This document shows, piece by piece, positions 415 through 64,000 of a DNA stretch of 64,000 bases. Position 1 is the first letter of the stretch; the number at the start of each line of letters is the position of its first letter. Below the pieces are notes generated by a model. That model was not told the origin of the DNA. It did not search any database and was given only the letters and a program-made list of their open reading frames with translations. This stretch comes from Peptococcaceae bacterium BRH_c8a. Its GTDB lineage: Bacteria; Bacillota; Desulfotomaculia; Desulfotomaculales; Desulfallaceae. The stretch is taken from NCBI GenBank assembly GCA_000961575.1, contig LADP01000005.1, positions 163,815-227,814 on the forward strand, written 5' to 3'. A program made the translations under genes and the position numbers.

Positions 415-429
415 ATTATGCCCCTCTCT

Positions 430-575
430 TTTTGCAGCCTCCGGAGTTAGCTGACGGGTTCGGTAAAAGATAACCCTACCCGGAATTAACGCCAACGGCG
501 TTGCCGGGATTCACCCCACTAAACCAGGTGGTTCCTCCGTACCCAACAATATGGGATTAGGCTATTTATGTCGTG
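430..575 (-). promoter_or_regulatory. c-di-AMP riboswitch (ydaO/yuaA leader)
   Basis: Reverse complement reads ...GGGTACGGAGGAACCACCTGGTTTAGTGGGGTGAATCCCGGC...TAGGGTTATCTTTTACCGAACCCGTCAGCTAACTCCGGAGGC..., matching the conserved ydaO blocks (GGGGUGAAUC; CCCGUCAGCUAACUCCG.AGGC), directly upstream of the CAP gene. Confidence 0.85.
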
Positions 576-5334: not shown

Positions 5335-5991
5335 TTGGTGGTATGTCGGGTGGATTATAAAGATTTAGCCATTGAATTAGTTAACCTTCATGGTTATTGG
5401 GCCCTGTTTGTAACGATGTTTGTTGATACTATGGGTATACCCATGCCTTCAAAAACCATGCTCGTGCTCTCCGGTTACTTTGTAACCTTGGGGATATTTG
5501 ATTTGCAGCGGATTTTTATTGTGGCTCTGGTGGGTACATTAGGTGGTTTTGCCAGTGGCTATACCATTGGAAGCAAACTGGGTGTGCCCTTTATTCAAAA
5601 ATACGGCAAGTATGTATTTATTACCCCCGAAAAAATAACCCGATTGGAAACATGGTTTACCCGGTTTGGGAATTTTGCCATCATAATAGCCTATTTTTTA
5701 CCGGTTGCCCGCAGTGTTGTGCCATATATAGCAGGGGTATGTAAAATGCCGTTTATTAAGGTAATGACATTCGCAATTATAGGAGCAACCTGTTGGATTA
5801 TATCACTTATATTATTTGGCTATGTTGTTGGGCAAAATCAAGCCGAGATTCTAAGCTTTTTAGTGGATTATTACCTTTATTTAATTGTCGGTGGGTTAGT
5901 ATTAACCGTTACACTAATCTTTGTTCAAAAGTATAGAAAAAGTAAGAAACCCAAAAGTAAGCCCCCAGAAGACAGTGATACGAATAATTAA
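5335..5991 (+). CDS. DedA family (VTT domain) membrane protein
   Basis: VTMFVDTMGIPMPSKTMLVLSGYFVTLG...GYTIGSKLG...FGNFAIIIAYFLPVARSVVPYIAGVCKMPF; start codon uncertain. Confidence 0.88.
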   Translation: MVVCRVDYKDLAIELVNLHGYWALFVTMFVDTMGIPMPSKTMLVLSGYFVTLGIFDLQRIFIVALVGTLGGFASGYTIGSKLGVPFIQKYGKYVFITPEKITRLETWFTRFGNFAIIIAYFLPVARSVVPYIAGVCKMPFIKVMTFAIIGATCWIISLILFGYVVGQNQAEILSFLVDYYLYLIVGGLVLTVTLIFVQKYRKSKKPKSKPPEDSDTNN

Positions 5992-31855: not shown

Positions 31856-32497
31856 ATGAGCGTAATTCTGGGCGCGTTGAACGCGGTTTTAGAATTTATG
31901 GTACATGAAGTAACTGCTTTTATTGCCTCCCTGGGGTACTGGGGTATTGCATTGGGGATGGCCATCGAAAGCGCTTGTATACCACTACCAAGTGAAGTTA
32001 TACTGCCATTTGGCGGCTATCTGGTTTCCACAGGGCAGTTGAATTTTTTTGGGGCTGCTATGGCAGGCACCATGGGCGGCTTGGGTGGTTCAATTGTATC
32101 TTACTATATCGGTTACAAAGGTGGTCGGCCATTTCTGAGGAAATACGGCCGGCTTTTCGGCTTTTCTGAAAAACATTTCTTGCAGGCCGAGGAGTGGTTT
32201 GGACGTTACGGTGAGGCCACCGTGTTTTTTACCCGCCTGATGCCAGTAGTACGCACGTTTATCTCTTTGCCAGCCGGCATTTCGGGGATGAACTTTTATA
32301 AATTTGTTTTATATTCTTTCCTTGGTTCACTGCCCTGGTGTTTTTTTCTTACTTACCTGGGTCTCAAACTTGGCGAAAACTGGTTGGCTCTAAAACCGTG
32401 GTTCCACCGGATGGACATTTTAATCGTGGCGGGCATCCTGGCACTGCTGGCATGGTGGCTGATTAAGAGGCACCGGAACAAAAAACTCTGGATCTAA
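31856..32497 (+). CDS. DedA family (VTT domain) membrane protein
   Basis: IESACIPLPSEVILPFGGYLVSTGQLNFFGAAMAGTMGGLGGSIVSYYIGYKGGRPFL...FFTRLMPVVRTFISLPAGISGM. Confidence 0.93.
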   Translation: MSVILGALNAVLEFMVHEVTAFIASLGYWGIALGMAIESACIPLPSEVILPFGGYLVSTGQLNFFGAAMAGTMGGLGGSIVSYYIGYKGGRPFLRKYGRLFGFSEKHFLQAEEWFGRYGEATVFFTRLMPVVRTFISLPAGISGMNFYKFVLYSFLGSLPWCFFLTYLGLKLGENWLALKPWFHRMDILIVAGILALLAWWLIKRHRNKKLWI

Positions 32498-32646
32498 ATA
32501 GTTTCCCCTGAAAAACTAAGCATAACTGGGGTTTGGTGTTAATCGGAGGGTTACGTAGGAGCTCGCTCAAGCATAACGGCGAGTAGTAACCCGGAGATTA
32601 ACACCAAACCCCTTACCAAGACTTTTTCAGGAGACACTAAATAGTT
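32494..32646. mobile_element. Candidate MITE-like foldback element with flanking direct repeats
   Basis: CTAAATAGTT at 32494-32503 and 32637-32646 flank a segment with long inverted arms GGGGTTTGGTGTTAATC...GATTAACACCAAACCCC and outer CTGAAAAA...TTTTTCAG. Confidence 0.5.
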
Positions 32647-32659
32647 ACCAATAAAGATA

Positions 32660-32697
32660 AAATGCGAAGGAGAAATATCTCCTTCGCATTTTTTATT
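32660..32697. terminator. Bidirectional terminator between dedA and the deacetylase gene
   Basis: AATGCGAAGGAGA-AATA-TCTCCTTCGCATT followed by TTTT. Confidence 0.8.
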
Positions 32698-32743: not shown

Positions 32744-33505
32744 TTAGTCAATAACACCCGGACCATGCTTAAGCAATTCAGAAACCGTCACTAATTTGTA
32801 GCCCTTTTCCCGCAGGCCGTCTATCACAGCTGGTAGTGCCGCCGGGGTACGATCACAGGTGTCACTGGCATGCATTAAGATGATGGCACCCGGGTGTGCT
32901 TTCTCCAGTACCCGGTTTATAATCTGATCCACGGAGCGGTCTTTCATCCAGTCCAGGGAATCGTCACTCCATTGGATCACTTTATAATCCAGCTCCTGAG
33001 CCGTGTTCAGAACCATATCGTTCCAGTGTCCGTTAGGCGTACGAATTAAGCGGGGACTCACCCCGGTGACCTCTTTAATGGATTCATGGGCGGTCATCAT
33101 ATCACTTTTGACCCACTCACTGCTTCGGTCGCCGTAGTTTACATGTTCATTGCCATGGCTGGCAATTTCATGCCCCTCGGCGGCCAGTCTTTTAGGAAAC
33201 TCCGGGTATTTTTTTACCCACGGACCGCTTAAAAAGAAGGTTGATTTCACATCTTTGTCTTTAAGGATATCCATTATCGGCCCCGGCACTTTGGTGCCCC
33301 AGCTTATGTCAAAGGTAAGCGCAACTATCTTTTCATCGGTTTGTACCTTGTAGATGGCGTGCGGTTTAGGCTCCACCGTAGCTGGAACGGTGTTTTGCTG
33401 CAGCATCACCACGAAAAGGACGGCGGATATAACCAGTAGTGTGCCCATCATCAAATTGCGTCTGAGCTTACGCATGTTCAGCAGGTAAATACGCACATCT
33501 TTCAC
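32744..33505 (-). CDS. Polysaccharide deacetylase family protein
   Basis: NodB motifs: VALTFDISWGTK, EGHEIASHGNEHVNY, RTPNGHWND, ILMHASDTCDRTPAALPAVIDGLREKGYKLVTVSELL. Confidence 0.92.
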   Translation of the reverse strand: MKDVRIYLLNMRKLRRNLMMGTLLVISAVLFVVMLQQNTVPATVEPKPHAIYKVQTDEKIVALTFDISWGTKVPGPIMDILKDKDVKSTFFLSGPWVKKYPEFPKRLAAEGHEIASHGNEHVNYGDRSSEWVKSDMMTAHESIKEVTGVSPRLIRTPNGHWNDMVLNTAQELDYKVIQWSDDSLDWMKDRSVDQIINRVLEKAHPGAIILMHASDTCDRTPAALPAVIDGLREKGYKLVTVSELLKHGPGVID

Positions 33506-44120: not shown

Positions 44121-44199
44121 GGAGGCTGTTTGAGGCTACTGGTTCCGTCCGCGCGTATATTCTGTACAGAAGGTTGGCTGTACATTAGAGTAAATCGAG

Positions 44200-44467
44200 A
44201 ACAGTGATGATGGGGATAAGTAAGCGGTAATTGCCTTTACAGGGAGTGTAGGCCGTCGACTGGGAGCCTGCTAAAAGCGCAACCCGCCGAAATTCACCCC
44301 GGAACTGCAGCTGAACGTTCATTCAGTAGGTGTAGCCGGTTTTCCCGCCGTTATACGGGATCCAAAAACGGTGGTTACCGTTTTTGGGCTGAGCGGTTGT
44401 GCACTTATGCCTGAATTAGGGTGGTACCGCGGATTTTATTAATCCGTCCCTGGAGGGCGGTTTTTTT
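44200..44467 (+). promoter_or_regulatory. T-box leader (phenylalanine) with terminator
   Basis: GTGATGATGGGGATAAGTAA Stem I start, candidate specifier TTC (44293-44295) in GAAATTCACCC, T-box AGGGTGGTACCGCGG, terminator CCGTCCCTGGAGGGCGGTTTTTTT. Confidence 0.92.

Positions 44468-63586: not shown

Positions 63587-64000
<414 letters not shown>

Follow-up and report, generated by a model that had tools for sequence, protein, structure and literature searches.

A MITE at a dedA stop codon in Peptococcaceae bacterium BRH_c8a, its likely mobilisation by an ISNCY-family transposase and the covarying core of its full-length relatives

Results

The window, a stretch of 64,000 nucleotides from the genome of Peptococcaceae bacterium BRH_c8a, harbours a dedA-family gene that is followed by a convergent polysaccharide deacetylase gene. 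Between the two genes lie a foldback element and a terminator-like hairpin. The features of this locus are as follows (positions in the window):

31856-32497, plus strand: dedA-family gene (VTT domain); open reading frame, Pfam PF09335 with E = 2e-23
32495-32500, no strand: left target-site duplication TAAATA; copy-flank comparison and copy alignment
32501-32637, plus strand: MITE of 137 bp, an internally deleted copy; copies, flanks and empty site in a congener
32501-32515, plus strand: left terminal inverted repeat GTTTCCCCTGAAAAA; repeat analysis and copy ends
32528-32554, plus strand: 5′ arm of the main inner stem; repeat and fold analysis
32559-32562, no strand: deletion junction GAGC, where 95 nt of the full-length copies are missing; copy alignment
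32562-32583, plus strand: small inner hairpin CTCGC...GCGAG, left over from the 3′ side of the deleted core; fold and copy alignment
32586-32612, plus strand: 3′ arm of the main inner stem; repeat and fold analysis
32623-32637, minus strand: right terminal inverted repeat, plus-strand sequence TTTTTCAGGAGACAC; repeat analysis and copy ends
32638-32643, no strand: right target-site duplication TAAATA; copy-flank comparison and copy alignment
32654-32697, no strand: terminator-like hairpin of the host locus, with an equivalent hairpin in the empty-site congener
32744-33505, minus strand: polysaccharide deacetylase gene (pdaB-like), convergent; open reading frame, Pfam PF01522 with E = 1e-31

The nested inverted arms that had been predicted for the element are real. 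The inner pair (32528-32554 and 32586-32612) is 27 nt long and 89% complementary, the outer pair spans 32494-32515 and 32623-32644, and the internal motif AAGCATAAC indeed occurs twice, at 32518 and 32569. When the ends of the copies were aligned, GTTTCCCCTGAAAAA...TTTTTCAGGAGACAC were found to form imperfect inverted repeats of 15 bp. The element strand is predicted to fold with -67.2 kcal/mol (z = -7.3; 0 of 200 shuffles were as good), and the sequence matches itself in inverted orientation with E = 3e-15. As is usual for a MITE, no transposase gene is present in the 137 bp, and a search of the element region against Rfam gave no match.

A direct repeat of 10 bp had been proposed as the target-site duplication. 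This repeat, CTAAATAGTT, is present at 32494-32503 and 32637-32646, but the duplicated part is the 6-bp TAAATA; the extra C and GTT are chance matches, the left GTT being the start of the element itself. The left repeat does contain the dedA stop codon (TAA, 32495-32497, inside the duplication), and the element does separate dedA from the downstream terminator hairpin at 32654-32697.

Elsewhere in the window we found a second, distant dedA-like gene (about 5386-5946, 28% identity), a T-box leader (44198-44454), a c-di-AMP riboswitch (421-573, minus strand) and, at 63587-64000, the beginning of a 16S rRNA gene.

Dispersed copies, which a MITE-like reading had led one to look for, were found at about 20 loci of the 4.17-Mb genome, with unrelated flanks and beside unrelated genes. 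Several of these are full-length copies of ~232 bp that harbour an additional, GC-rich module at their centre. The copies are flanked by 6-bp duplications, mostly of the form TANNTA: TAAATA in the window and TATTTA, TAGCTA and TAGTTA in other copies of the same genome. The length of 6 bp is fixed in the window, C7, C44 and C18 copies and in relatives, such as Desulfallas sp. Bu1-1 (TAAATA and TAGGTA) and Ca. Desulfopertinax cowenii (TAATGA and TAACTA). The 10-bp duplication was rejected because it is 6 bp in other copies and at an empty site, and a 2-bp TA duplication (IS630-like) because the common flanks are direct 6-mers, for instance TAGTTA/TAGTTA. Stop trinucleotides are contained in TANNTA, and other copies likewise lie on stop codons, as in GAAAAACTGGATAGCTA, where the first G of the element completes TAG. 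With one pattern or query each, no copies were found in viral contigs, plasmids or phages, and a description of this repeat was not found in the openly licensed literature.

The dedA locus could be compared with that of a congener (G001), which is collinear at 87-89% identity and does not carry the element. There, window positions 32499-32658 are replaced by 17 nt and the terminator hairpin is retained; the site has diverged at the insertion point (CTAAAAAAAGTT), so that the exact pre-insertion bases are unreadable from G001. Using joined flanks as queries, we searched for further empty sites. At the site of the C44 copy, the sequence is ...AAAATAGCTAAAGATGG in G001 and TAGCTA-element-TAGCTAAAGATGG in the genome of the window (G000), and at that of the short C33 copy a single TAGTTAC was found in G001. 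An empty site carries one copy of the 6-mer. The C7 and C33:79466 sites were left out of the empty-site count, since another repeat sequence is present there in G001. At two sites of copies in the window's genome (L360 and L356 in G001) we observed another foldback repeat, TGTCAT.CTGAGCG...CGCTCAG.ATGACA, as if these sites attract repeats.

An alignment with the full-length copies shows that 95 nt are absent from the window copy between GGAGC and CGAGC. The short C48 and C33 copies are missing the same stretch, with the crossover at another point of the imperfect repeats ACGTAGGAGCT / ACGAACGAGCT, and the loss in the C5:64176 copy is larger than in the window copy. The 95-nt module was presumably lost by slippage or recombination between these imperfect direct repeats at the foot of the hairpin, and hairpin-promoted deletion between direct repeats would account for all short copies.

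Furthermore, we scanned the 113 genomes of the order for the pattern of duplication plus end (TANNTAGNNYCYNCTGAAAAA). It was found in 16 genomes, and the reversed control in none; the matches include inverted pairs 1.6 kb apart. In genome G022, which we take to be Pelotomaculum thermopropionicum SI, these are two insertion sequences with the ends GTGTCCCCTGAAAAA and the duplications TAATTA and TATCTA, and in G035, presumably Ca. Desulforudis audaxviator, four with the ends GATTCTGCTGAAAAA; TAGGTA is the third duplication seen at the partner insertion sequences. The transposases encoded by the full insertion sequences of G022 and G035 are 453-464 aa long; they match NCBIfam NF033593 (ISNCY) with E = 6e-153 and 1e-149 and have DUF772 and DDE domains (Pfam). 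The NF033593 insertion sequences are probably the ISDol1-like subgroup of ISfinder. Similarity between them and the element is limited to the ends (15-18 bp). In the genome and genus of the window, the same search detected no intact ISNCY transposase. In a member of the family (G009), a remnant adjoins an end that is identical to that of the window copy over 16 nt. Transposases of the IS4, IS5 and IS1182 types in the element's own genome were considered as movers and rejected, as they are present without these ends. G035 additionally contains internally deleted derivatives of its insertion sequences of ~0.5 kb (C1:770724-771256, L193, and C1:773922-774455), a second kind of non-autonomous element.

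A structured RNA had been offered as the alternative to a MITE. This reading shifts from the window copy to the full-length copies, which carry a covarying, RNA-like core that the window copy has lost. The core is a hairpin of ~110 nt with helices separated by tandem G.A steps. In an alignment of 26 core sequences (A1), double-sided changes were found in 12 of the 25 canonical pairs, and covariation was 0.217 versus 0.112 +/- 0.009 in shuffles that take no account of relatedness. In a 110-copy alignment (A2), which was fitted to the structure, covariation was 0.367 versus 0.147, again with shuffles that ignore relatedness, and was lost when the partner was slid. The first tandem G.A step is conserved in 25/26 and 26/26 sequences of A1, and in some copies one step is swapped for Watson-Crick pairs (CCTGCGG/CCGCAGG; CCGTAGG/CCTACGG). 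As G.A steps are C.T mismatches on the opposite strand, it seems to be the folding of the G.A strand that is conserved. Two alternative forms of the apical part, GCATGTCTGAG and GCTAGACTTTCG, occur within one genome (e.g. L006 and L007 of A1). A second hairpin repeat, TTGGGGACATTCCCGA...TGTGTCCCCTGACC, sits nested in the core, at roughly the same position in G000:C42:5554 (L037) and, twice, in G001:C140 (L145).

A model built from the core (R1) was used for searches. Among the 113 genomes of the order, 33 contain the core, with up to 33 copies per genome; of 300 genomes sampled from the phylum as a whole, 22 have it, and most of these do not belong to the order. Stems and ends around the core vary by lineage, ISNCY ends being found mainly in two families. 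Rfam searches, including permissive thresholds, placed the core in no known family and returned chance miRNA- or sRNA-like matches or nothing. Several contigs of G085 and G032 (e.g. G085:C58 and G032:C44) end on or beside core copies, so that copy numbers are probably underestimates. In G001:C45:16780-17920 (L144 4280-5424), about five core-bearing units form a tandem array that repeats every 229 nt or so; upstream of it lie open reading frames that by inspection are TetR-like and acyl-CoA-dehydrogenase-like.

Between two codirectional genes, 51 cores are in sense and 11 in antisense orientation (p = 3e-7), counted with heuristic gene calls, with related loci taken separately and with replication and transcription polarity taken together. 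In the ISNCY-framed lineages alone the ratio of sense to antisense is 14:3, one ambiguous locus being counted as sense.

Discussion

The dispersed copies, the duplications, the empty site at dedA and the autonomous insertion sequences with the same ends bear out the MITE-like foldback reading of the original prediction. The mobility of the element is well supported, and we are confident that it is a real MITE copy, normal in kind and degenerate. Very probably it is a non-autonomous MITE that was moved in trans by a transposase of the ISNCY family (NF033593, with DUF772 and DDE domains), a machinery that could be identified because the same ends and the TANNTA duplication bound ISNCY insertion sequences in two genomes. 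Such a transposase would recognise ends like G(T/A)NTCCNCTGAAAAA and cut TANNTA with a 6-bp stagger. That it also moved the window copy is suggested by the sequences of relatives, as no intact transposase is found in the genome or genus of the window. For this reason, the element is probably stranded in its present genome.

Two other origins of the window copy have to be weighed against this. It could be a gene-specific, non-mobile structured RNA at the 3′ end of the dedA transcript, as its strong sense-strand fold, its position between stop codon and terminator and the covariation in the core of its relatives would suggest. However, about 20 copies lie beside unrelated genes, the orthologous dedA locus does without the element, duplications flank it and the covarying core is deleted from this very copy. 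The empty site and the dispersed copies together refute such an RNA for the window copy, and we give this origin hardly any credence. Equally improbable is an origin as a hairpin repeat that moves in single-stranded form with the help of a Y1 transposase of the REP/RAYT or IS200/IS605 type. The hairpin form, the extragenic positions and the strand bias of the core, which replication polarity would explain, are consistent with it, and the lineages without ISNCY ends leave room for another mover. Clean terminal inverted repeats, 6-bp duplications and single-copy empty sites are, in contrast, the mark of a DDE transposase, and DDE insertion sequences with the same ends exist. To our knowledge, Y1 elements leave no target duplication.

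The MITE inserted on the stop codon of dedA (TAA within TAAATA), leaving the host terminator downstream. The dedA gene should still end correctly, but, as the terminator at 32654-32697 is intact, its mRNA should gain a hairpin of ~143 nt in the 3′ untranslated region. Placement on stop codons may reflect both target preference and selection, insertions there being tolerated.

The core of the full-length relatives is apparently an undescribed structured repeat module. It might be a mere quasi-palindrome of mobile DNA without RNA function. In that case, repair templated by the hairpin or correction in cruciforms would have produced the covariation, and the strand bias would stem from replication or from the removal of antisense copies by selection. 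Foldback DNA self-corrects, all copies are repeats and the core was lost without obvious harm in several of them, including that of the window, and we put this explanation not far below an even chance. Template correction, however, should erase mismatches, yet almost every sequence retains the tandem G.A steps, and they lie on the strand that is sense in 51:11 cases. A symmetric-ended DDE transposon gives no obvious reason for such a bias, so that selection at the RNA level is its simplest reading. Covariation and strand bias make an RNA function of the core plausible, if tentative: the core of a full-length element would function as a folded RNA upon sense transcription. With the same reserve, we suggest that the core may represent an undescribed, Bacillota-wide family of structured RNA with nested helices between conserved tandem G.A steps. 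Such a family would spread as a passenger of several distinct miniature elements, have its role in 3′ untranslated regions and between cistrons, and be selected for sense orientation.

For anaerobic Bacillota, the MITE case is complete in ends, duplication, empty sites and partner insertion sequence, and it shows that such MITEs can bring long hairpins onto stop codons. Of greater weight is a conserved folded module that is common to elements with different ends and strongly biased towards the sense strand; should it function as RNA, it would represent a mobile domain of regulatory RNA.

BOX elements of Streptococcus pneumoniae are modular, with outer ends and a structured middle that is variable or absent. 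The element studied here resembles them in this modular plan, a likeness of form; we know of no relation in sequence. The 1.6-kb ISNCY insertion sequences (NF033593) of G022 and G035 share the ends and the 6-bp TANNTA duplication, whereas the window element has no gene and is alike at the ends only. The IS1202 family was also once filed under ISNCY and is similar in size (1.5 kb) and transposase length (PMC10132070). Its members have a TnsB-like transposase, ends beginning with 5′-TGT, duplications of 3-5 or >15 bp and dif targets (PMC10132070), and membership was rejected because the ends of our element begin with G(T/A)N and its duplication is 6 bp. The repeats bcr1-bcr3 of Bacillus cereus, of which bcr1 is specific to the B. 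cereus group according to a title cited in PMC3446304, are likewise dispersed, structured and MITE-like (PMC3446304), again a likeness of form, with no known relation in sequence. They are often part of untranslated regions and operon spacers (PMC3446304), which provides a precedent rather than proof.
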